From Agapetus fuscipes (taxonomy: Eukaryota > Arthropoda > Insecta > Trichoptera > Glossosomatidae): 64,000 bases of DNA. The notes beneath the pieces are model-generated. The model did not search any database. It had not been told where the DNA came from and worked only from the letters and a program-made list of their open reading frames with translations. The stretch lies in contig OX637353.1 in assembly GCA_951799405.1 (NCBI GenBank), positions 11,718,001-11,782,000 of the forward strand, in the 5' to 3' direction. Every line of letters starts with the position of its first letter. Within the stretch, counting starts at the first letter, position 1. Made by a program: the position numbers and the translations under genes. Positions 18,150 to 62,215 of the stretch are shown in pieces.

Positions 18150-19849
18150 CTAATCACATAAAAAAATTCTTTTATACGATTTTCTAGAATGGAGTTTACT
18201 AGGGCAGTCTCGCTGAAGGCTCCAGCAGTAGTCCGCCATCATGTGGCTATCCCATCGTCCTTGATAACGATCTTCCATAGTTTTATTATCCTGGTGGAAT
18301 CTTTCCCCCTGTTCTTCACTACAATCACCTAAGTTTTCTGGAAAACGATCTAGGTGGCTGTTGAGGTAGTGAACTTTTATACTCATGTTACAGCCGAGAA
18401 TATTTAAATTTGAAAGCATAGTTTCCACTAATTCTACGTAATTCTCTGCTTTATGATTGCCAAGAAATTTTTGTACTACTTGAACAAATGAACTCCAAGC
18501 GTTAGATTCAGTCTCGTTCATTGATGTGGTGAATTGTGGATCTTTAACAAGTTGCCTTATTTGAGGACCATCAAATATACCAGCATTTAGTTTTTCCGTG
18601 CTAATGCCAGGAAATTTACGTGACAAATACCCAAAACAATTTCCATCTCGATTTAAGGCCTTCACAAATTGCTTCATTAGGCCTAGCTTGATATGCAAGG
18701 GCGGAAGTAAGTTTTTTGTCTTGAAACCAAAGGTTCGTTGATCACGTTTTGTATTCCTTGAATCATGACATCTCTTGAAGGCCAATTTTTGTTAACCCAG
18801 TGCTCATTTTTAGCTCTGCTGTCCCAAAGGCACAAAAAACAAGGATATTTTGTATAACCACTCTGCTGTCCAAGGAGGAAGTTAATCATTTTTAAATCAA
18901 CACAAATTGACCACTGATGTTCTTCGTATTTAATTTTTCTCAAAACTAATGCTATTGTTTCATATTCTTCCTTCATGGTAGTAGAATGACCAATAGGAAT
19001 TGAGCCATATTTGTTACCGTTATGTAAAAGAACACATTTCAAACTACGTTTTGAACTGTCAATAAAAAGGCGCCAATCATCTGGAGTGTATTCAGGCAAA
19101 CCCATTTTTTCTAAGAGCCCTTTTATATTGTTACAGAATACCAAGTCATTTTCCTGAGTGAAAAAAGGCAGCAGATCCTTATCTCTTTTACGATAAAATG
19201 TAATATTAGTACCTCGACAAAGTAGATTTTTTTCTTTTAATCTGGATGCAAGTAATTCAGCGGATTCCTTTGAGAGATTCAGGTCTCTTATAAGATCGTT
19301 TAGTTCTTCTTGATTGAAACACTGCGGAGTTGCTAAATCTGCTTCAAAATCGCTGTCGTTTTCTGATTGAATTCTTTTAACTTCGTCAGACGTTGATGTT
19401 TCTGTATCATCTTCTGTCAGTTCGGGTAGACTGCTGAATGATGGAACGGGTATTTCTTCCGAATGCACTACAGGCCTTCTTGCAGAATCTAGATCAGGAT
19501 ATGTCCATTTGTGTCTATTGTTTCTATTTATGCCTTTAATATTAACGAGACAAAAATAGCAGTCGTCATGATGGTTCCGCGGTTCTCTCCAAACCATTGG
19601 TACACCAAACTTTAGGCACTTCCTCTTTCCAGTTGTGCACTGTCGCAAATGTTCAACACATGTTTTACATATGAAATGTGGGGCCCAAGATTTATCTTGA
19701 TCTCCTAAATGAACGCCAAAATAGGCAAGATAAGCTTTTTTCACAAAGTCAGAAATCGTTTTTCTGCTCTCTTTCAAAGTGTATTCACCACACACATAAC
19801 AAAAAACATCGGGATGATTTACACAGGTACGTCTGCTTGTGGATGCCAT
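18150..19849 (-). pseudogene. transposase-like gene with one frameshift
   Basis: Two overlapping minus-strand frames, 19849-18683 (388 aa) and 18785-18150 (211 aa), form one product of about 570 residues broken by a single-base indel in an A6 run (T6 on the plus strand, 18712-18717). The N-terminus has paired cysteines typical of zinc-binding modules (FCYVCGEY, ICKTCVEHLRQC, DCYFCLVNI). A Glu/Asp/Ser-rich linker follows, then a conserved core with DWRLFIDSSKRSLKCVLLHN, SICVDLKMINFLLGQQSGY, CFLCLWDSRA and, after the shift, NLLPPLHIKLGLMKQFVKAL, GERFHQD and MMADYCW. I recognise the family as a multicopy protein of arthropod and other invertebrate genomes without known function. It lies inside a TIR-bounded element, so a transposase role is a reasonable inference, not shown. 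The start ATG follows a non-coding AT-rich stretch. Confidence 0.65.
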
Positions 19850-20415
19850 TGTTTCAGTTTAGTGTCTTGATACTACAAAACGACCAAAATTTACACAAAA
19901 TGATAGCACAACTTTACTTGGGAAAACTCAGTAATATACTAAATCAAGTACAGCCAAGCAGGTAAAGAAGGATCGGGTCATAGGCAATTACAGGTATAAA
20001 AGTAATTAAGAGCATTGTATTGAGTAGTTCCTAGTATAGGAACATTGGGTCAGGGACAATTCCAGGTATCCATTAAGGCGGGCCACTGATGTATGAGAAA
20101 AAAAAAATTACGCTGAATTTTAATTGAAAGTGAAAGTGAGAGTGAAATTATGTTGTTAAATGACGTAATTTTATTGTACAGAAAGTTTCATTACAATCAA
20201 ACGACAACTTTTGTCTCCAAATTGACATTGAAATAACGAGAAATTGAAAAAAAACACAAAAAAAATATTTTTACATACTGACTTTAAACCCGATTTTTTA
20301 ATTTTATTTCTCATGTAAAACAAATGTTTAAGGTGTAAAATAACACATTTGAGAGAAAAAAGTAATTATAGACTTAAACAGAAAGTAAAATTTTGTTATT
20401 GATAACGTAAAAAAT

Positions 20416-30204: not shown

Positions 30205-30563
30205 ACATGCTACCACTTGCGTTTCTCTCCTGTCACACGTTGCAGTGGTTATAATGAAATGAGTGATAAAGTTAAAATATGTATATACAACTTGAAAATA
30301 TGAAATATTGACACGAATTTTGGTGATCACAATATTTATAACGTGTGTTATCTGTCAACTCTAGTTACTTCCGGTCTAGTCGGCAGCCGTTATTTGAAAT
30401 GGTACCAACATTCAAGATTTTTTTTTCGTTGTGCCGAGTTTTTTGTACACATGGAAATGCAACTGTGAAGTTCTTTGTTATTTTTATTACTAATGACCAT
30501 TTTCGTAAGTAAGTCTACTTTCGTAAGTAGCTTTGTGCCAAAATTGTTAAATTAGAAATAGTT

Positions 30564-31268
30564 GTGGAGGGCCAGGACTTACAAACTGGCCACTTAAAGG
30601 GGCAGCAGCCCAAAAAGTACAACGAAGTGGCTGCTACTAAACCATCGCAACAGATGCAGCAGCCTCAACAACAGAAGCAGCCGCAGCAGCAACAGAAGCA
30701 GCCGCAGCACCAACAGAAGCAGCCGCAGCAGCAACAGAAGCTGCCGCAGCAGCAACAGAAGCAGCCGCAGCAGCAACAGAAGCAGCCGCAGCAGCAACAG
30801 AAGCAGCTGCAGCAGCAACAGAAGCAGCCACAGCAGCAACAGAAGCAGCTACTGCAAAAGCGACCACCTCAATCGTCGCAACAGAAGCTGCCTCTGCAAC
30901 GACAGCCCCAACAGCAACAGTTGAAGCCCCAGGAACCAAACCCGTGGAATATACAGGGGCCAAGGCGCCCACGTAGGCAGACCAAGTTGCAAGGAACCGC
31001 CTCCAGTAGCAAGCATACGGCGGTAACCAGGAGGCGGACGCTTCATGCCTGGAGGTTCGCCAAGGACACTTCTCCCCATCAAGTGGAAGACTACATAAAA
31101 GAAGCCACCAAAGTGGAGGCAATTGTGGAAATTCTTCTAAATAAAGGGGACTATGCGTCATTTAAAATTAGTTTGCCAGAGGACGGATGGGACCGAGTGT
31201 TCAACCCGGTCATGTGGCCAAAGGGCGTGTATATCGCCAAATTCTACCACAGTAAAGATGGCCTTTAG
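30564..31268 (+). CDS. LINE ORF1 protein, 5'-truncated, Gln-rich
   Basis: ORF1 proteins of this class bind LINE RNA as chaperones. The first half is a Gln/Pro/Lys repeat encoded by about nine imperfect 21-bp units (roughly 30655-30850). The second half is basic (GPRRPRRQTK) and ends in a compact domain with LHAWRFAKDTSPHQVEDYI, YASFKISLPEDGWDRVFNP and WPKGVYIAKFY, matching the RRM-like C-terminal domain seen in ORF1 of CR1-type elements. No CCHC knuckle is visible. The frame opens on GTG; no convincing ATG start is present, so the N-terminus is probably lost. The stop overlaps the ORF2 start by 11 bases, an arrangement common in LINEs that reinitiate translation. Confidence 0.7.
   Translation: MEGQDLQTGHLKGQQPKKYNEVAATKPSQQMQQPQQQKQPQQQQKQPQHQQKQPQQQQKLPQQQQKQPQQQQKQPQQQQKQLQQQQKQPQQQQKQLLQKRPPQSSQQKLPLQRQPQQQQLKPQEPNPWNIQGPRRPRRQTKLQGTASSSKHTAVTRRRTLHAWRFAKDTSPHQVEDYIKEATKVEAIVEILLNKGDYASFKISLPEDGWDRVFNPVMWPKGVYIAKFYHSKDGL
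30655..30850. repeat. 21-bp coding minisatellite
   Basis: Tandem units of about CAGCAGCAACAGAAGCAGCC encode QQQKQPQ. Units vary by single bases (CAC, CTG variants). The opposite strand gives a long Leu-rich frame that is only a shadow. Confidence 0.9.
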
Positions 31269-33906
31269 TGCGATATACCAGATTGTGAGAGGTCTGAATA
31301 CAAAGGTAGATGACTTTCAAACCAATATCTACCTTCAAAACTCAGACATAGTTGCCCTCACAGAAACCTGGTTGAATACCTCTGTACTATCATCTGAGCT
31401 ATTCGACAATCGGTACACAGTGCATAGGCGTGACCGCGGCAATCGGGGAGGCGGTGTTTGCCTTGCAGTCAGAAATGAGCTGGTGTCAAAAAGGATGCCT
31501 GACCTGGAAACGGACGGAGAGCACTTGTGGATTAAGATTGTAAAAAATCATTCCCCCATCTACGTGTGCGTCGTCTACTTTCAGTGTCAGGGAGGAGAGG
31601 AGGAAAGAACTCTCTTTTATGAATATATGGAGAGGAATGCTCGGGTACTAGGGAACCGCAGTGTTATGATACTGGGGGACTTTAACATGAATAGCGTTAG
31701 CGGTTCTGCTCTCCTCGCGTATTCCTGCTTCCTTGAAAGCAACCTCCTCACCCGATCCAACACTATTCCAAACGGCCACGCCGGCATCCTAGATTTCGTA
31801 CTGACGAATGAGAGGATGTCGTGTGCAGTGGATCGATGTTTGGAGCCGTTGGTAACTGAGGACAGCTACCACCCCACACTCTCAATTACGGCAAAGGTCC
31901 GAGGTACGCTTCTGCGCTGTGCACACACACAGGTACGAGCTAGGGACGCTGATGTATGTGTCGGTGAGAGCAGCAATGCATTGCACTCATACATACAAAG
32001 GTGGCCGTCCTCTGACAATAATATTAATTATAAATACTTGGATGTAATTAGAGTTAATGATATTTTAAGGAATTTTGATTTTAATGACTTGTATAATTTT
32101 GTAAATCCTGACTGTGCACTGGAATATATTTATAATGTTTTATTTAAGATTATTTGTCTCTGTGCACCTAAAAAGAGAACTAATTATCAAGGTAGGACTT
32201 ACCCAGCTTGGTTTACTCGTGATATTATAGACAATATCAAATGCAAGCAGCGACTTCATGAGAAATATTATAAAAACCGAACTACTTATAATTACGGTGA
32301 ATTCTCAAAAAAGCGCGCGCAGCTCAAAACTGATATTAAGAGTGCTCGGAGGTCCTACCTTGATAAAATTCAGTCCGGGATCGGAAGTGATTCTAGGGAA
32401 TTTTGGAAATATGTTAAATCATTAAGGAAAGATGGTAACTCAATCCCTACACTGATGGATGAAGACCTTATTACTACAGATCCTCAATCAGTGTGTGAAA
32501 GGTTTTCAGAATATTTTCAATCCGTTTACAGCTCTCGAATCCCTGAATTAGATGTGGAATCTACTCTCAAAAAATTGCCAATATCTAATTCCAATAATAT
32601 TAGCATTGACCTGTTCACATTGGATGAGGTACAATCTTGCTTAGTTGGCATAAATCCTAACAAAGCAGCAGGTCCAGATAATATTCCACCAAAAGTCATT
32701 TTGGCTATTGCAAAATCCATCGCAAAACCATTGACATTTATTTTCAATCTATGTATGAAAAGATGCACATTTCCGCAAATTTGGAAACTCACCAAAGTCA
32801 TCCCCATACATAAATCTGATTCTAAGACAGATGTTCATAACTATAGACCAATCTCTATACTATCAACATTTGCTAAAATATTTGAAAGTTTGATTCATAA
32901 GAATCTACTAGAAAATATTAAATCTCGTATCACCATACATCAACATGGCTTCCTGCCGAAGAGATCTACTGTCTCTAATCTTCTTATTATGAGTACAGAC
33001 GTAGCTTCTAATCTGGATTCTCAGCTCCAGACAGATGTAGTGTATACCGTTTTTTCGAAAGCATTTGATCAGGTAGATCATGATATCCTTCTTGAAAAAA
33101 TGCATGTTCTTGGGTTTTCTAAATCCCTCTTATTTTTCTTTGCCTCCTATTTGAGGAACAGGCAACAGTACGTCGAGTTAAATGGCTTTACCTCTAATAC
33201 CTTTCAGCCATTTTCCGGCGTTCCTCAAGGATCAAATCTGGGTCCATTGGCCTTTATTATATTCATTAATGATATAGTAGATATCATTAAGTACAGCTCT
33301 TGTCTTCTTTATGCAGACGATTTGAAGGTTTACACGAAAGTCGTAGATATTCACGACTGCATAAATCTGCAAGATGATTTAGATGCATTAGCAGCTTGGG
33401 CTGAGAAAAACAAGCTCTTCTGTAACTCAAAGAAATGTGTCTCAATGTCGTTCACTAAATCTTTCAGACCCATCTTGCATGAGTACAGTATTGGTGGGCA
33501 ATTACTGTCTCGTGTGAAATCAATGCGGGATCTGGGAGTTGTGTTTGATCCTGGACTGAAGTTCTCTGATCATATAACGCAGCTGATGACTAAGTGCTAC
33601 CAGCTGCTGGGATTAGTAATCAGAGTGAGCAAACAACTCACTAAGCCCAGAGCGATGGTTGACGTCTTCAGCTGCGTTATCCGATCTAAATTGGAGTACG
33701 CTGTCGAGGTTTGGACTCCATACCAGCGGAAGTACATAGATATGATAGAACAAGTCCAAAAAAAGTTTCTCAGGTATCTCCTCATGAGGCGGTGTGGAAG
33801 TTATCCACAATTCATGCATCATGAGGAGCTACTTCGGGAGACTGGATTTAGAAGCCTGGAAACGAGGCGCAACAGGTCCCTTATGGTGCTCACTCATAAG
33901 GTCATC
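31258..33906 (+). pseudogene. LINE ORF2: endonuclease and reverse transcriptase, interrupted
   Basis: I take the start at ATG 31258, in the ORF1/ORF2 overlap, rather than the upstream in-frame ATG at 31153, which lies within ORF1. The APE-type endonuclease has VALTETWL, ILGDFNMNS and the terminal YHPTLSI motif. After a linker the RT domain shows NKAAGPDNIPP, YRPISILSTFAKIFE, motif A, GVPQGSNLGPLAF and YADDLKVY (33310-33321). In motif A the first catalytic Asp is Val (GTT at 33049-33051; YTVFSKAFDQVDHD), which should abolish polymerisation. The C-terminal domain runs to THKVI, where the RTE-1 insertion breaks the frame. The listed open frame beyond 33906 is inserted sequence. The last 78 codons are at 36524-36760. 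Confidence 0.85.
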
Positions 33907-36518
33907 TATAATATAATCTATAATCTAAGTTGCAAGGATATATTCATTTAAAGCTCTCAGATGTATGCCCACAAACCAACAAGTGTAGTTCGCGCTTACA
34001 AATGCTGAATGTGTACTTACAAATAAAATCCAAACCTCAAATGAACATAAGCCCCACAACTTTTGCCGACCTTCCCTGAAACAGGGGTGACATTGGCAAA
34101 GTGAACCATTTTTTACAGTATGGGTGGTCAGCCTCATACCAACCTATAAGTCAAGGAATATGAATAATAAATTACATTTAAATATAAAAAAGAACAAAAC
34201 CTTACAAAGAAATCTATACAAAAAAAGTCAAAAATTTCCTATGCAAAAAATGTAGCAAATGAATACACCAACATTAGAAATCAACATTGCAGATTAGCCG
34301 CCACTTCTTCCTGTCCTTGCATACTTCTTTCATTTCATCCAGAGTCATAACCTTTTTCATACAAGTCCTCCTTTTATTATGACTCTGTATATCCCAGTCA
34401 TTCGCTATTTCAGAGATTTGATCCTTCCATACTTTTCTCGGTCTTCCTCTACCACGACATCCATCTATTCTAGCAACATATACTTTCTTCGTCAATCTTT
34501 CATCACTCATTCTCTCCAAATGCCCGAACCATCTTAACATACTTCTTTTAATCTTCACTTTCACACTTTCCCTTACACCACATTCTTCTCTTACAAAATC
34601 ATTCCTCACCCTGTCACTTCGTTTTTTCCCAATCATGCTTCTTAGATAGTCCATTTCTACTGTATGGACTTTACTAATTTCCCTTTCACTCACCGTCCAG
34701 GCTTCACTTCCATACATCAAGGTTGGCACTAGTATACCACCGTGCACCGCCAATCTAACATTTTTTGAGAGATTTTGGTTCCTGGCGATGCAAGCGGTCG
34801 CACCCAGTACACACCTGCCTTTCATTATTCTGCTTTCAAATTCACCGGCCATTCTTCCATCTTTTTCAAACTTACTTCCCAAATATACAAACTCATTTAC
34901 GACATCAACATTCATTCCATTAATTTTAAATTCATAATTCATATTTTCATCATCTCTTTCAAAAATCAAAATTTTCGTCTTTCTTGCATTCAACTTCAAA
35001 TTATTACCTTTCAAAGCTTCGTTCAATCTAGAGAGCATCATTTGCAATTCCACTGCTGAATCAGATACAAGGACTGCATCATCCGCATACAGTAGAACGC
35101 TTACTTTGCTCTCTCCTATCATTAATCCACAATCATCAAGTCTAGCATCTCGAACACACTTGTCCATGACTATGTTAAATAGCCATGGGCTCATCACACA
35201 TCCTTGCCTTACACCCTTAAAAACTTCAAACCATTCACTATACTCACCATCAATACGAATGCAAGCCATACTATTCTCATAGTTCGCATGCACCGCATTG
35301 AGTAGAGCTCCATTCACTCCGTATGCTTTCAAAACATCCCACAACATACCTCTGTCCACTGAGTCAAAAGCCTTTTCCAGATCCACAAAGGCCGTGAATA
35401 GTTTCCCCCTCACCGACAATTGTTTTTCAACAATTTGTCGTAGAGTGAAAATCTGATCAACACAGCCTCTACCGGCCATAAAGCCGGACTGTATATCGGA
35501 AACCCTTTTGCTAGTAGTCAGAATCACATTTTTTATAATCACCTTACAGAAGACTTTTCCTGGTATACTGAGTAGACTGATTGGTCTGAAGTTCTGACAG
35601 TCTTTTTTGTCCCCTTTACCTTTGTAAATGGGAACAATGAAGACTGCCTTCCTCCAATCCATCGGTACCACTCCTGCATTCACACAAAGCTTACATAATT
35701 CAAACATCCAATCTATCACACATTCACCTCCTGCTTTCAACATTTCACCATTTATACCATCAAACCCAGCAGACTTCCCATTCTTCAGACGTGAAATAGA
35801 CACCTGCATTTCTTCTTTCAAAATCTTCAATTCATTCTCTTCATCTGTCTGTTCATAAATTCTTCTTTCACCCTGGCCAAAAATTTCTTGAAAATAGTTC
35901 TTCCATCTCTTGCATACTTCTTCATTCTCCCATACCATCTCACCGGCAGCACTTTTGACTCCCGGAGTGGTCAATGCAGAAGATTTATTTCTATCCGCAT
36001 TGATCCACCTCCAAAATTCCTTCTTACTGTCGGTGAAACTTTTGTTAATCCTTTCATCAATCTTTCTTTGTTCATTCATCTTGCTTTCATAAATTATAGT
36101 CTTTGCCATTCTCTTAGCTATCTTATATTCGTCTTCTAGCTTTCTATCATTTCTATCATTCAGCCAATTTTCATAACACTTTTTCTTAACTTTCACATCT
36201 TCTTTCACTCTATCATTCCACCAGGCATCTCCTTTCAATTTTCCACCTTTCGTTACCCCACATACTTTTTTAGCACATTCAATCATTCCTTCCTTCAGAT
36301 CTTTCCACATGCTTTCAATATCTTTTCCACACACATTCTTCTCAAGTTCATTTACACTTAAAATTTTGTGGAGCTCTGATACATACTTCTCTTTCACATT
36401 TTCTTCATTCAGCCTTTCTACTTTTATTCTAGTCATTCTTACTTGCTTCTTGCGTTTCTTCTTTCTTACTTCACCAAGCATTATTTTAGCACATAAGAGA
36501 TAGTGATCACTGCCTATT
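33907..36518 (-). mobile_element. RTE-1 LINE, longest copy
   Basis: On the minus strand: a stub of the endonuclease (36518-36482, with GSDHYLLCAK), the RT ORF, and the 3' UTR ending at 33907 in AACTTAGATTATAGATTA repeats. TCATC flanks both ends (33902-33906; 36519-36523). It is 5'-truncated inside the endonuclease. It is the reference for the many short RTE-1 pieces in the window. Confidence 0.88.
34274..36511 (-). CDS. RTE-like endonuclease stub plus reverse transcriptase, 5'-truncated
   Basis: The frame is open for at least 745 codons without an internal stop. The first ATG is at 36481, but reading continues upstream to the endonuclease C-terminal motif GSDHYLL (36514-36494), so the ATG is not the true start. 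Then come a basic linker, the RT fingers (LKNGKSAGFDGINGEML, FRPISLLSIPGKVFCKV), motif A FVDLEKAFDSVD, motif B GVRQGCVMSPWLFN, motif C LLYADDAVLV (about 35080-35098), and the C-terminal domain with VHTVEMDYLRSM, RWFGHLERM, GRGRPRKVW and DRKKWRLIC. All catalytic RT residues look intact, but without the endonuclease body the copy cannot mobilise itself normally. Clade assignment (RTE-like) is from motif style. Confidence 0.85.
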   Translation of the reverse strand, partial: SDHYLLCAKIMLGEVRKKKRKKQVRMTRIKVERLNEENVKEKYVSELHKILSVNELEKNVCGKDIESMWKDLKEGMIECAKKVCGVTKGGKLKGDAWWNDRVKEDVKVKKKCYENWLNDRNDRKLEDEYKIAKRMAKTIIYESKMNEQRKIDERINKSFTDSKKEFWRWINADRNKSSALTTPGVKSAAGEMVWENEEVCKRWKNYFQEIFGQGERRIYEQTDEENELKILKEEMQVSISRLKNGKSAGFDGINGEMLKAGGECVIDWMFELCKLCVNAGVVPMDWRKAVFIVPIYKGKGDKKDCQNFRPISLLSIPGKVFCKVIIKNVILTTSKRVSDIQSGFMAGRGCVDQIFTLRQIVEKQLSVRGKLFTAFVDLEKAFDSVDRGMLWDVLKAYGVNGALLNAVHANYENSMACIRIDGEYSEWFEVFKGVRQGCVMSPWLFNIVMDKCVRDARLDDCGLMIGESKVSVLLYADDAVLVSDSAVELQMMLSRLNEALKGNNLKLNARKTKILIFERDDENMNYEFKINGMNVDVVNEFVYLGSKFEKDGRMAGEFESRIMKGRCVLGATACIARNQNLSKNVRLAVHGGILVPTLMYGSEAWTVSEREISKVHTVEMDYLRSMIGKKRSDRVRNDFVREECGVRESVKVKIKRSMLRWFGHLERMSDERLTKKVYVARIDGCRGRGRPRKVWKDQISEIANDWDIQSHNKRRTCMKKVMTLDEMKEVCKDRKKWRLICNVDF

Positions 36519-36523
36519 TCATC

Positions 36524-36760
36524 AACGGCTTAATTGACAGTCCCACCCTGTTAGAGGGCTACAGGTTGTATGTGCCTGACGACTACACCCGAGGGCGAGG
36601 ACATGATCTATTTCATGTACCGAAAAGCCGTACTGATGTCGTGGCACAACACCCTGTGACTCGGAGTATAAAGCTCTTAAATAAGTCTAATATAGACATT
36701 TTTGAGTGTAATTTATTAACATTTAAAAATCTTGCAATAGAGTTCCTCCCAGCGTGTTGA
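36524..36760 (+). pseudogene. LINE ORF2, last 78 codons after the insertion
   Basis: Begins NGLIDSPTLLEGYRLYVPDD and ends in a stop at 36758-36760. Removing the insert and one TCATC restores the same frame as 33904-33906. The motif (NGLIDSP.LL, then VP..TR) is the usual C-terminal end of CR1/Jockey-type LINEs. Confidence 0.85.
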
Positions 36761-56935: not shown

Positions 56936-56967
56936 ATCACATTGAGGAGATTGTGAAAGAATGGTAT

Positions 56968-57421
56968 TGTTACGTTTTACCTGGGTTCTTTTAATTAAAA
57001 CACAAGTTTAACACAAGTTAGCCATACAGTTTATTTACACAGACTTTCTTACAATAGATTTATTTTTAACAGACTTATTCTAACAGATTTATTTTAACAC
57101 ACTTCTTTATTTCGTACAGATTACATTTATTTTACACCTTATTGGTCGCCCTGGCAACTAGATACTCCTCTGTGTGAGTGCTTCGAAGACTGACTCGCTT
57201 CAGCCCATTGTCGCCCTTCTTATAGCGGAACCTAGGGGCCATTCCAGCCTGCCCTAGAAACTTCCACTACCACAGTTGTATAGACGATTCTGGACATATT
57301 TATTTCATGAAGAGTCCATTTCCTACCTACATACACACCTTACAATTACAATCGTCTGGGCCAGAACATTCTCTCAAAACACACGTACACCAATAAACAT
57401 CTACCAGTGTATTTCGTTACA
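56968..57421 (-). repeat. 3' LTR
   Basis: Same length and apparently same sequence as 59871-60324. The polypurine tract abuts it at 57422. Confidence 0.92.
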
Positions 57422-57434
57422 TTATCCCCCCCTT

Positions 57435-57459
57435 AGACTGTTCCGCCGCGGAACAGTCT
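57435..57459. repeat. perfect 25-bp hairpin next to the polypurine tract
   Basis: Two 12-bp arms (AGACTGTTCCGC and its complement) around a single C. It lies between the ORF stop and the polypurine tract. Confidence 0.9.
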
Positions 57460-57464
57460 TTTCT

Positions 57465-59420
57465 TTAAGAAGGTACGGGCAGTTTGACCCACAGTTGCAT
57501 CCAGTGGTCAGGAAAAATGACGTTCCACGGAATTTTCCCCTTAGGGTTTTGCCCGTCATTGCTGGCTGGTGTGGGGGGGGGGTGCTTTCCTCTTAGCGGC
57601 CGGCATGGGCGCCTTTCCTTGGCTGGGGGCACCGCTTTGCGTCCCCGGGCGGCCACCGCTCCTAGGCCCCGCTTGCTCGCCGGCGTCAAAGGATCAGAAT
57701 CCTTGGTCGTCGGAGCCGCTCTCCTGCTCGGAAGCGAAGTTCTCACTCTCGCTCTCGTCCTCTGACTCGCTGGGTTGCTTCCTGCCGCGCCATGCTTGGG
57801 TCGTCCCTTCTGCTTGCTCTGCTTGGCTGAGCCCCTGCGGGCGGGGGCGCGGCGCCTACGGGAGGGGTGCTTTCCTCTTGGCGGCCGGCATGGGCGCCTT
57901 TCCTTGGTTGGGGGCGCCGCCTTGCGTCCCCGGTCAGCCACCGCTTCTCGGCTCCGCTTGCTCGCCGGCTCCTGCGTCAAAGGATCAGAATCCTTGGTTG
58001 TCGGAGCCGCTCTCCTGCTCGGAAGCGGAGTTTTCACTCTTGCTCTCGTCCTCTGACTCGCTGAGTGGCTTCCTGCCGCGCCATGCTTGGGTCGTCCCTT
58101 CTGCTTGCTCTGCTTGGCTGAGCCCCTGCGGGCGGGGGCGCGGCGCCTGCGGGAGAGAGCGCCCCCCTCCCCCACTGACGGGTCAAAGTCAGAGTCCGCC
58201 TCCTGTCCGGAGCCACTCGGGTTGTACGAGCCATCTGAATCCCCTAATTCATCCCTGCTGACTTTGGGTCCCCGCACTTTGGTTTCCGGATCTGTTTCAT
58301 ACTCCTCGTTAGAGTAACCTCTCTTGACAATAGCAGCAGCGGACCTTCTGGGCCTGCCTCCCGTGGCCTCGCCGCGGTCAGTCACCGGCCTCTCCTTCAT
58401 CAGCCCCCTGGCGTGCGAGGAGACCTGCTTTGGCAGCAGCAGGAAGCCCACCACCCTGCTGGCCAGCTCCGTGGGCGCGCCCCTCTTGTCCAAGCCCAGC
58501 TTCTCGCACAGCGTCCGCAGCTGCTTGGGCTCCAGCTTCTGCACCTCCTCCAGCTTGGCCTTGTGCTCAGGCGTGTCCTTCTCAAACTCGTAGCCCTTGA
58601 ACTTCTTTTTGTTGCGCTTGATGAGGTTCGTGCGGCACAATTGATTGTACCGGAACTTGAGGTCCTCCATCTTGAACCTGGAGATGGCCACCTCCACGTC
58701 GGGGATGTGGTCGATGGGGATGCCCCGGCCCGCGGGCACGGGCACCGGCGGCTCCACGGCCTTCTTCTTCTTGGGAGCCTCCTCCACGGCCTCCTCCGCC
58801 TTCTTCTTGGGCGCGGGCTTCTTCTTCACACTGTTGGCCTTCTTGGCCTTGCCCTTCTTGTCCTTGGCGTCCTCATCCTCCTCCTTGGCGTCCGTCTCCT
58901 CCTTCGCATCCTTCTCAGCCTTCACCTCGGCCGAGTCACTCTTGCCGTTTTCAGCCGACTTGACATCATCTTTGTCATCTTTGCTGTCAGCTGCGTCCTC
59001 AGCCTTGAGCTGGCCGTTGTTTTTGGCCTTCAGGTCTCCCTTCCCCAACTTCTGAGACGACTCATCCTCAGTTGACATATCGGCCTTTTTGTCATCCTGA
59101 TTATCACTTAATTTTACACTATCAGTGTCCACCGACATTTTTAAGGCTAGGTTTTTAGCCCTCTCCTCCTTCCAACCAGCTAGGTCTTCCCTCAAGCTCT
59201 TGAAGTTGGCAGCCATCTTTGTTTTAAACTCTTCCACGGCTCGGTCGCGGTCCCCTCCAGACGCCATGACAAAATATGCCGGGTCTTCGCCTGACTGTTC
59301 CAAGGCCTCCATGAGGCGTGCCTGTAAGGCCGCCTTCCCTCCTGAGGTCTCCAGGTCCCTCTCTAGAAGCTCATTCTTAAGCTCATAGGCTTTGAGGTCC
59401 TTGATGTTCACCTTAGCCAT
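57465..59420 (-). CDS. SAP- and DEK-domain chromatin protein captured in an LTR element
   Basis: 651 residues, intronless, ATG preceded by an A-rich context and a non-coding leader. Residues about 6-42 form a SAP motif (DLKAYELKNELLERDLETSG), a DNA-binding helix pair found both in chromatin proteins and at the N-terminus of some arthropod gag proteins. Residues about 95-230 are a Lys/Glu/Asp-rich linker with basic clusters (KKKPAPKKKAEE). Residues about 233-333 match the DEK conserved domain: AISRFKMEDLKFRYNQL, KRNKKKFKGYEFEKDTPEH, LRTLCEKLGLDKRGAPTELA, then VVGFLLLPK. Residues about 334-420 are Ser/Asp-rich (RPRRSAAAIVKRGYS). Residues about 422-613 are two copies of a 95-97-residue Arg/Lys/Pro/Ser-rich unit (RRRRAPARRGSAKQSKQKG). 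The DEK C-terminal domain is absent. It would be expected in the nucleus on DNA. The coding region is clearly GC-richer than its surroundings. Whether the N-terminal SAP is from gag or from the host gene is open. Confidence 0.85.
   Translation of the reverse strand: MAKVNIKDLKAYELKNELLERDLETSGGKAALQARLMEALEQSGEDPAYFVMASGGDRDRAVEEFKTKMAANFKSLREDLAGWKEERAKNLALKMSVDTDSVKLSDNQDDKKADMSTEDESSQKLGKGDLKAKNNGQLKAEDAADSKDDKDDVKSAENGKSDSAEVKAEKDAKEETDAKEEDEDAKDKKGKAKKANSVKKKPAPKKKAEEAVEEAPKKKKAVEPPVPVPAGRGIPIDHIPDVEVAISRFKMEDLKFRYNQLCRTNLIKRNKKKFKGYEFEKDTPEHKAKLEEVQKLEPKQLRTLCEKLGLDKRGAPTELASRVVGFLLLPKQVSSHARGLMKERPVTDRGEATGGRPRRSAAAIVKRGYSNEEYETDPETKVRGPKVSRDELGDSDGSYNPSGSGQEADSDFDPSVGEGGALSRRRRAPARRGSAKQSKQKGRPKHGAAGSHSASQRTRARVKTPLPSRRAAPTTKDSDPLTQEPASKRSREAVADRGRKAAPPTKERRPCRPPRGKHPSRRRRAPARRGSAKQSKQKGRPKHGAAGSNPASQRTRARVRTSLPSRRAAPTTKDSDPLTPASKRGLGAVAARGRKAVPPAKERRPCRPLRGKHPPPTPASNDGQNPKGKIPWNVIFPDHWMQLWVKLPVPS
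57582..58157 (-). repeat. tandem duplication inside the DEK-like ORF
   Basis: Units 57582-57866 (285 bp) and 57867-58157 are highly similar and in frame. They differ by scattered substitutions and a 6-bp indel (CTCCTG). Each ends at a GGGAGGG/GGGAGAG segment. Confidence 0.9.
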
Positions 59421-59851
59421 TTTTTATTTTAACAAACTTCAAAACAAAAATATTTGCAAATTTATTTAATACGGGTTATGAGTTTTATATATAAAGTTAT
59501 TTTAAATACGTACTTTAGCAAAATAATAATTTATCTAATTATACTGACGGTAGGTAGGTACCGCCTTTTAATATTTATTTTTAAATTTCAAATAATAATA
59601 TTAGATAATGATTATTTACTTTGCTTCGTCATCGGCTAATGAGTATTTACAAACACTAACGCAATATTATTAACACGTTATCTATCCACACTTCAATCAA
59701 ATTTTTAGCGGGTAACCACACGATCGTTTTTAATTCAAGTTTAATCAGTTTTATTTAAAACTTTTTTTTTTTATTCATCAGTTTTTATTATGTTGTCCAC
59801 ATATATTTTTCAAAAGTCTCAAGCACAGTTTTTACTTGGTACTTGGTTTTA

Positions 59852-59869
59852 AACTTCACACCGACACCA
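59852..59869 (-). other. primer-binding-site candidate
   Basis: One base inside the 5' LTR. The plus strand reads CTTCACACCGACACCA, which would be the 3' end of a tRNA including CCA. I cannot assign the tRNA. Confidence 0.55.
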
Positions 59870-59870
59870 T

Positions 59871-60324
59871 TGTTACGTTTTACCTGGGTTCTTTTAATTA
59901 AAACACAAGTTTAACACAAGTTAGCCATACAGTTTATTTACACAGACTTTCTTACAATAGATTTATTTTTAACAGACTTATTCTAACAGATTTATTTTAA
60001 CACACTTCTTTATTTCGTACAGATTACATTTATTTTACACCTTATTGGTCGCCCTGGCAACTAGATACTCCTCTGTGTGAGTGCTTCGAAGACTGACTCG
60101 CTTCAGCCCATTGTCGCCCTTCTTATAGCGGAACCTAGGGGCCATTCCAGCCTGCCCTAGAAACTTCCACTACCACAGTTGTATAGACGATTCTGGACAT
60201 ATTTATTTCATGAAGAGTCCATTTCCTACCTACATACACACCTTACAATTACAATCGTCTGGGCCAGAACATTCTCTCAAAACACACGTACACCAATAAA
60301 CATCTACCAGTGTATTTCGTTACA
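59871..60324 (-). promoter_or_regulatory. 5' LTR with TATA box
   Basis: In element orientation GCTATAAG (60129-60122) is a TATA-box candidate followed by a GC-richer segment. AATAAA-type signals lie further down the LTR (GAAATAAAG, AAAATAAAT), so U3-R-U5 order is plausible. Confidence 0.75.
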
Positions 60325-60536
60325 GTATATACAGAGTGAATGTATGTAAAAGAAGAAAACGCATGAAAATGGCGATGTATTTGAATTGAAAGATGTATGT
60401 AAGAAAATATGAAGAAATGGAGGCAGCTCTGCAGAGGCTCTGGCCACCCCTAGCGGAACGATGACAGAGTAACAGTTACTGTCAGATTGTGTAGAATTTG
60501 ATTCTGAAGAAAATTTCACTGAAATATCATGTTTGA

Positions 60537-60780
60537 TCTAATCTAATCCAAGTTTCAAAGATATGTTACATTGGAGATTCACATTACATGCATTTTCACA
60601 ACCAGACACGTACAAGTTCGCGCTTGCACATGCCTCATGTGAGCCTACAACATATAAACCAAATCTCAAATGGACATACACCCTGTAACTCTTGCCGTCC
60701 TTCCCCGAAACAGGGGTGACATTGGCAAAGTGAACCATTTTTACAGCATGGGTGGTCAGCCGCATACCAACCTATAATCA
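60537..60780 (-). mobile_element. RTE-1 3' unit
   Basis: Reverse copy from GATCTAATCTAATCCAAG to CATACCAACCTATAA. It is inserted in the same M1 MITE as the neighbouring RTE-2. Confidence 0.75.
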
Positions 60781-60877
60781 AATCGAAGAATCAAATGGCA
60801 ATTGTGCCAAACAAGCACTGGGGGGCAAAAAATATTGGGGATTGAACTCAAGCCCTCATTCATTTGAAAAATAATAT

Positions 60878-61445
60878 GAAATAAAATTATACATAGTTTT
60901 TCTTAACGAGTTGATTTACTTCTCGAGCTCTTCCGATATTTTCCCAACATTATCAAGAGAAAAACTAAAATCTAAGATGTCAGCATTGCTCAGAGAGTTT
61001 TTGGGGGCGGAGCTATGGTGGGGTGAGGGGGGAGTTTTTCACCAAACAAAGGCTTACCCTAATCTAATCTAATTTAATCTAAGCTGCAAGGATATATATC
61101 ATTTAAGATTTATATAAAATGCATTCTCACCTACAGGCACATGTAGGTTCGCGCCTACACATTCTGCATGTGTGCATACAAATAAGCAAAACCTCACATA
61201 ACATAAACCTTGCAACTCATGCCGCCGTTCCCTGAACCGGGGTGGTATTGGCAAAAGTGAACCGATTTTTACAGCACGGGTGGTCAGCCTCATACCAACC
61301 TATCAGTCAAGGAACTCCGCCCCCAAAAACTCTCTGATCAATGCTGTAATCTTAGATTTTAGTTTCTCTCTTGATAATGGTGTGAAAACATGGAAAACGC
61401 TAGAGAAATAAATCTACTCGTGAAAAAAAACTGTATTTATTTTGT
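60878..61445. mobile_element. MITE M2, complete fold-back, split by RTE-1
   Basis: Arms of about 125 bp: left 60890-61012 (TTTTTCTTAACGAGTTGATT to TTTTTGGGGGCGGAGC), right 61313-61435 (CTCCGCCCCCAAAAACTCTC to CTACTCGTGAAAAAAAAC). They are reverse complements with some mismatches. An RTE-1 3' unit (about 61060-61316) lies in the centre. Single arms of the same family occur at 8085, 40670 and 47185. Confidence 0.75.
61060..61316 (-). mobile_element. RTE-1 3' unit, subfamily with GCGCCTACACATTCTGC
   Basis: Reverse copy from CTAATCTAATCTAATTTAAT to CCTATCAGTCAAGG. It shares diagnostic bases (AATAAGCAAAACCTCACAT) with the copy at 1090, so the two form a subfamily. Confidence 0.75.
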
Positions 61446-61449
61446 GCGT

Positions 61450-61935
61450 TATTTAATTTGAATATTGTTATTGGTTTCTGGCAATCTTTTCGAGCGATCA
61501 TCGCTACAAGCGCTCAAATCGCTTAATTATATTAGCGACACCTGCCATTAATAAGGTATCGCAGCTGTCACATCTGGGTGTCGGTGCTCCTGCACTGAGG
61601 ACACTTGTCATGACGTCATCTTCCTAGGGCGCGCTTTGTGTCGGCTCCAGTGGGCATGTTTCCTTTGTGCGCCACAATGCCATTCGTCTTGAAGACGCAC
61701 GTACGCCGGAGCAATGTTGTGCCAACCTACTCTGAGGGAAATATAGTGTGTATTGTATCCATGCCAGGAAGGGGCTGTGCAATAAACACGTTGAAATTTT
61801 TGGTTTTGATGTGATTTGGAGTGACGTTTTCAAAATTATAAATTGCAACTTCAAGAGTTGATATTTTAAGCAAAAATTTATAGTTGATTATTAGAATTAT
61901 TTTTATTATAGGTGGACCATGTTTAATAAATATTT
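61450..61935. other. unassigned DNA
   Basis: No gene or known repeat was recognised; one short GC-richer segment is at 61590-61760. Confidence 0.4.
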
Positions 61936-61939
61936 CATA

Positions 61940-62215
61940 TACTGTAAAAAAAAATGGTTCACTTTGCTAATGTTACCGCTGTTTCAGGGAAAGTCGGCAA
62001 GAGTTGCAGGGCTTATATACATTTGAAATTGGGTTTTTATGTTGTATGCCCACATATGGTGGCTATATGTGGTGAACTATGGTGGCCCATCACGCTTATA
62101 CATGCCCACTTAGGCATGTGTAAGCTTGAACGTAATTCGTGTCTGGGTGTAGGATTGCCCTTGATATGAATCTGAAATGTAATATATCTTTGAAACTTAG
62201 ATCATAGATTTTAGA
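61940..62215 (+). mobile_element. RTE-1 3' unit, 5'-shortened
   Basis: Begins at CTGTAAAAAAAAATGGTTC and ends AACTTAGATCATAGATTTTAG, with a short local repeat of the CACATATGGTGGC segment. Confidence 0.7.

Follow-up and report, generated by a model that had tools for sequence, protein, structure and literature searches.

The genome of the trichopteran insect Agapetus fuscipes carries a large and apparently very young family of long terminal repeat (LTR) retrotransposons in which an intronless DEK reading frame stands in place of gag-pol. The family was recognized through one copy in a 64,000-nucleotide stretch of contig OX637353.1 (assembly GCA_951799405.1, positions 11,718,001 to 11,782,000 of the forward strand), referred to below as the window. 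A preliminary description of this copy, made from its letters and open reading frames, had read it as a non-autonomous LTR retrotransposon that has captured a DEK-like chromatin gene. Having followed up that description across the genome, we hold with good confidence that such a family exists, that template switching to a spliced DEK transcript is the likely source of its DEK sequence, and that its members probably depend for movement on proteins supplied in trans by a different LTR element.

Structure of the element

The window element spans positions 56968..60324 (3357 bp) and is read on the minus strand. Its 5' LTR (59871..60324, minus strand) and 3' LTR (56968..57421, minus strand) are each 454 bp long, are bounded by TG...CA and show zero differences over their entire length. 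The element is flanked by the target-site duplication GTAT, on the left at 56964..56967 and on the right at 60325..60328, and a G-rich polypurine tract, AAGGGGGGG, lies directly inside the 3' LTR (57426..57434, minus strand). These three features had all been reported in the preliminary description and are borne out here. As paired LTRs, a target-site duplication and a polypurine tract are all present, the element is an LTR retrotransposon, and one without its own gag-pol. A candidate primer-binding site, ATGGTGTCGGTGTGAAG, adjoins the 5' LTR (59854..59870, minus strand), and a similar sequence occupies the equivalent place in the 10 family copies compared. It is followed by an untranslated leader (59421..59870, minus strand), in which many frame-breaking insertions and deletions (indels) distinguish the copies.

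A single long open reading frame (ORF) of 651 amino acids occupies positions 57465..59420 on the minus strand; the other sizeable frames over the element are shifted frames or lie on the opposite strand, and overlap it. Residues 1-94 (59139..59420, minus strand) contain a SAP motif (6-41) and a long helix predicted with low confidence (58-97). They have no counterpart in the DEKs compared and, judging by their position right behind the leader, may derive from the N-terminus of gag. Residues 95-435 (58116..59138, minus strand) are derived from DEK on sequence comparison, extending from the first methionine of that protein through its SAP core. A basic tail is encoded by two tandem copies of a 291-bp (97-codon) unit (57575..58155, minus strand), which is single in other copies of the family such as L072.

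Several comparisons identify the central part of the ORF as DEK. Residues 165-347 match Protein Data Bank (PDB) chains named Protein DEK (E 6.6e-12), and residues 229-420 match six DEKs at 56-61% in a word-based search, five of them from the named Lepidoptera Scirpophaga, Eumeta, Pieris, Phthorimaea and Danaus. From residue 95 onward the ORF reads MSVDTDSVKLSDNQDDKK, which aligns with MSGDTDKAKISDNQDEDKK, with which DEK begins in Pieris, Phthorimaea and Danaus. A single tblastn alignment continues from this start through the core with no interruption for introns. The element core is 60-62% identical to each of five lepidopteran DEKs, which are 80-88% identical among themselves. Beyond the core, the ORF departs from the DEK frame, and a weaker likeness to the acidic C-terminal half of DEK, in low-complexity sequence, is found in another frame.

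A Pfam scan of the ORF gave one family over the cut-off, namely SAP at residues 6-41. In agreement with the preliminary description, no gag, protease, reverse transcriptase or integrase family was listed at E<=1. The same description had called the product a SAP plus DEK-domain protein. This holds for the SAP motif and for the pseudo-SAP/SAP core of DEK, but Pfam DEK_C is not listed for the ORF and the three DEK_C places in the genome all lie outside the element. The product therefore resembles Protein DEK in its N-terminal stretch and pseudo-SAP/SAP core, and differs from it in the absence of DEK_C, an extra N-terminal SAP motif, and a tail that is in another frame and partly duplicated. Structure prediction returned a mean predicted local distance difference test (pLDDT) score of 44.5, with the best values in the SAP-core stretch at about residues 281-330 (block means 70-85).

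Copies in the genome

With the inner 1.6 kb of the element as query, we searched the genome (618 Mb in 148 contigs) and scored the best 40 of 1351 candidates, which were 98-100% identical to this query. These 40, the window copy included, and three other LTR-paired places formed a structural sample of 43 loci. Two full LTRs are present in 40/43 loci; the remaining three (L011, L012 and L020) have one each and were excluded. The LTR pair is free of any difference in 36 of the 40 copies, while L002, L008 and L010 show one substitution each and L025 shows one substitution and 16 gapped columns. An exact 4-bp target duplication flanks 37 of the 40 (all except L004, L010 and L014), with ATAT, ATAC or GTAT accounting for 31 of these 37. 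Likewise, an ORF of 554-668 amino acids from a common start codon is found in 37/40 copies (all except L028, L071 and L073).

Lengths of the paired copies range from 2.1 to 4.5 kb, and each contains the DEK ORF or its remains. The preliminary description had suggested looking for further LTR-flanked copies, with or without pol: 39 were found besides the window element, and no copy read has room for pol. It had also proposed that the element is mobile, and past mobility is shown by copies dispersed over many contigs with their own target duplications. The family is apparently very young. Two copies depart most from the common layout. L071 (C33:12235600-12240200) is a 4.5-kb copy whose ORF is interrupted, less than a hundred bases from its start, by some 1.6 kb of inserted sequence; the insert has no coding-strand open frame over 107 amino acids, and the copy may have moved with it or gained it very recently. 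L073 (C21:12525360-12527520), a 2.1-kb copy, has lost the beginning of the DEK part together with residues 1-94 and most of the leader, but its LTRs are still identical and a target duplication flanks it.

Copy number was assessed with two short pieces of lepidopteran DEK core, and the resulting counts are lower bounds for places with DEK sequence, LTRs having been checked at a minority of them. For the first piece, the best 150 of 303 candidates are stop-free within the piece and lie in open frames of 209-684 amino acids. For the second piece (54 amino acids), the best 150 of 302 candidates comprise one host exon and at least 149 other places. The latter are stop-free in the 54-residue piece and lie in open frames of 204-684 amino acids, at least 135 of them with 500 amino acids or more. 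In addition, the best 40 of 1088 candidates from a search with the LTR were scored, and 30 loci were fetched with 1.5 kb on each side. DEK sequence lies within 1.5 kb of the LTR at 29/30 of these loci; the thirtieth, L044, belongs to the DEK-bearing copy L071 as its second LTR.

Origin of the DEK sequence

A search of the genome with the DEK_C family found three places among 4 candidates. At C11:946574-946729 lies a DEK_C exon that is identical to Eumeta DEK in 51/51 residues, with AG (acceptor) and GTAAGT (donor) at its borders. On the same strand, about 6.8 kb upstream, a core exon at C11:953533-953694 is the place that the second core piece matches best. The two probably belong to one gene. 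Their separation indicates that the genome has an intron-split DEK gene, with splice signals read for the DEK_C exon only; this is the intron-containing host gene for which the preliminary description had proposed a search. Whereas the host exons stand apart at 946.6 and 953.5 kb of C11, the DEK stretch inside the LTRs is intronless. Capture from the host gene had been proposed; capture of a spliced DEK transcript appears well supported by the intron-free alignment from the first methionine of DEK.

The two other DEK_C places, C1:1336652 and C9:6431727, were rejected as host DEK: they match DEK_C, but their neighbouring residues are not DEK. Beside the window element, at 60692-62000, are inverted repeats with 129-nt arms that are 84% complementary and 51-nt arms that are 88% complementary; visual inspection showed a sequence resembling them adjacent to the host DEK_C exon (L077).

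A plausible route to such a chimera has been described. According to extracts from PMC5408686, which cites Tan and coworkers, cellular mRNA may be packaged by LTR elements, and a template switch then gives LTR-flanked chimeras able to move again. In the present case, reverse transcriptase would have switched from the RNA of a parent element to DEK mRNA, so that DEK came to be read in frame after a short N-terminal piece, possibly from gag. The LTRs, leader and polypurine tract would keep the chimeric RNA replicable. As the element has no recognized enzymes, it presumably has to be moved in trans, and a helper element would supply gag-pol. In the last and weakest step, the product would benefit the element, and the most plausible ways are anchoring of the element's RNA or cDNA complex to chromatin or alteration of chromatin where the protein is expressed.

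Maintenance of the reading frame

Indels were compared across 36 copies, with L071, L073, L025 and L028 left out. In the 5' LTR and leader (904 bp) there are 36 distinct indel events, of which 30 are not multiples of three and 6 are. The opening 1.8 kb of the ORF has 4 events, each a multiple of three (4/4), and two of these are placements of the 291-bp unit. This difference in frame-breaking indels, 30/36 in the LTR and leader versus 0/4 in the ORF, suggests selection on the protein, and the frame appears to be kept by selection. Two alternative C-terminal tails, ...PVPS and ...LRGG, occur in the family (57465-57750; L001-L040) owing to one-base differences near the end of the ORF.

Silent diversity in the N-terminal part of the ORF is about five to seven times that in the DEK part, and the leader is likewise diverse between copies. 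We infer that RNA templates recombine between lineages, in which case high diversity in the leader and N-terminal part would be expected.

The principal alternative is that DEK is a neutral passenger and that the open frames reflect only the recent spread of the copies. We regard this as possible, though doubtful. The indel pattern speaks against it, as does the survival of the frame through the 291-bp duplication, small in-frame indels and an in-frame deletion of 4 residues. In its favour, the identity of the LTR pairs in 36/40 copies implies little time for decay.

Several further results weigh against the account preferred here, and many of them suit a passenger. The structural sample was selected for similarity to the ORF, a choice that enriches intact frames. 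L028, L071 and L073 are without the usual ORF start or frame, yet have identical LTRs, so that copies with a truncated or interrupted ORF may move too. In the last stretch of the ORF, which is mostly still coding, both indel events (2/2) break the frame and yield the alternative tails. Codon tests on 37 copies did not show purifying selection on the DEK part. For its two segments, mean pairwise counts put the ratio of non-synonymous to synonymous polymorphism (pN/pS) at 0.85 and 1.37, while counts of distinct variants give 1.11 and 0.55; with few changes and ratios near 1, the codons show no selection. The amount of change since capture also matters. The core exon on C11 is only 67% identical to the Scirpophaga DEK piece, which is below the 41-47/54 identities of five other DEKs (four from named Lepidoptera) and near the 34/54 of the element. 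Much of the divergence of the element may therefore predate capture; the local host DEK may itself be divergent and the change since capture small. In a simulation of neutral decay by substitutions only, the frame was kept in 5/500 runs at 30% core change and in 90/500 at 10%, figures conditional on the post-capture change assumed. On the same side, no helper element was met among the 30 fetched LTR loci, which are those closest to the query LTR and were viewed without a scan for pol, diverged LTRs lying outside the reach of this search. Finally, residues 1-98 as a protein query found no relative among 197 candidates.

Alternative origins

With no gag relative of the N-terminus among those 197 candidates, the whole ORF, including the N-terminal SAP motif, might instead go back to a single cellular gene, a DEK paralogue, without any gag-DEK fusion. 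The frequent occurrence of SAP motifs in chromatin proteins agrees with such an origin. However, three lepidopteran DEKs begin at the methionine aligned with residue 95, and the extra N-terminus lies directly behind the leader, where gag begins. We consider a paralogue origin rather unlikely.

It is more unlikely still that DEK was captured in another species and that the element arrived by horizontal transfer. Five lepidopteran DEKs, 80-88% alike among themselves, are all equally distant from the element core (60-62%), which would fit a foreign source. The relatives found by sequence are nevertheless of lepidopteran type, as recovered by the word-based search. In addition, copies at C1 and C20 contain the derived core residues of the element and lack the in-frame 4-residue deletion; the presence of these more host-like copies suggests that the family has resided and evolved in this genome.

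There is next to no probability that DEK and the LTRs came together by chance or that the assembly duplicated a segment here, given 40 copies of the same layout on many contigs, 37 of them with exact target duplications. The preliminary description had specified beforehand that it should be abandoned if the ORF were the only DEK in the genome, if the LTRs belonged to two unrelated insertions or if the pair were an assembly duplication. The exons on C11 rule out the first. The other two are ruled out by the dispersed paired copies with their own target duplications, the LTRs forming a true pair at 40/43 loci.

Predicted function

We compared the DEK part with human DEK, whose DNA-contacting residues are named in extracts from PMC12263440. 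By eye, on the alignment from the PDB match, the element has K, R, R and K, all basic, at the contacts K124, K125, K158 and R168. At R116, K144 and R153 it has Q, A and E; lepidopteran DEKs have Q, A, and D or E at these positions. The placement of R107-K111 is ambiguous because of the 4-residue deletion. According to the same extracts (PMC12263440), DEK without its C-terminal domain still binds nucleosomes, though perhaps somewhat less, and the histone-binding region at residues 52-68 of the human protein matters. The element product is predicted to bind nucleosomal linker DNA without DEK_C.

A more specific role is proposed only tentatively, and we would sooner expect it to fail than to hold. 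Freed of DEK_C and furnished with an extra SAP motif, the fusion might serve as an accessory factor of the element, either tethering its RNA or integration complex to nucleosomes or opening or closing chromatin. The frame would then be kept since the spread of the element encoding it rises.

Other open frames in the window

An open frame of 936 amino acids lies at 31141-33951 (plus strand), preceded by a glutamine-rich open frame at 30531-31268 (plus strand); we take the former to resemble the endonuclease/reverse transcriptase of a long interspersed nuclear element (LINE). A frame of 751 amino acids at 34274-36529 (minus strand) presumably resembles another non-LTR reverse transcriptase. At 18150-19858 (minus strand), two overlapping open frames of 391 and 213 amino acids may represent one cysteine-rich protein with a frameshift.

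Relation to known elements

LTR elements are known to capture host genes; a high-copy, frame-keeping family built on DEK is a new form of such capture. To our knowledge, the cases of such capture are plant elements, retroviruses and single retrocopies. Transducing retroviruses are replication-defective, carry a cellular gene fused in frame behind the viral N-terminus (gag-onc) and need a helper. The present element would share this layout. It differs in that there is no evidence of env or infection, in that it forms a resident genomic family, and in that a gag origin of residues 1-94 is only possible. TRIMs, such as PbTRIM of a harvester ant, and LARDs are small non-autonomous LTR elements moved in trans, as the present element likely is. 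They have no coding capacity; unlike them, the element has a frame of about 550-670 amino acids that is kept in 37/40 copies.

Judged by the titles and abstract openings listed, the open-licence literature yielded no DEK-bearing retrotransposon or related capture. Closest in kind is maize Bs1, likewise an LTR element with host coding sequence inside and a chimeric gene. In the extracts from PMC13317346 that describe it, however, Bs1 is a plant element that transduced segments of three host genes, none of them full length, whereas the present element carries one chromatin gene from its own start codon at high and apparently very recent copy number. For metazoan LTR-mediated retrocopies, extracts from PMC5408686 propose template switching between LTR-element RNA and mRNA, as we do here. 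The chimera described here differs from those in being a family, present at well over a hundred places and mostly with an open frame.

In genomes of this kind, annotation could label as protein DEK many loci that are in fact mobile DNA. As the family is abundant and young, with most of the LTR pairs read identical, it allows the capture, its spread and any selection on the cargo to be examined soon after the event. Should the fusion act on chromatin, it would provide a natural test of whether a mobile element gains by a nucleosome-binding cargo.

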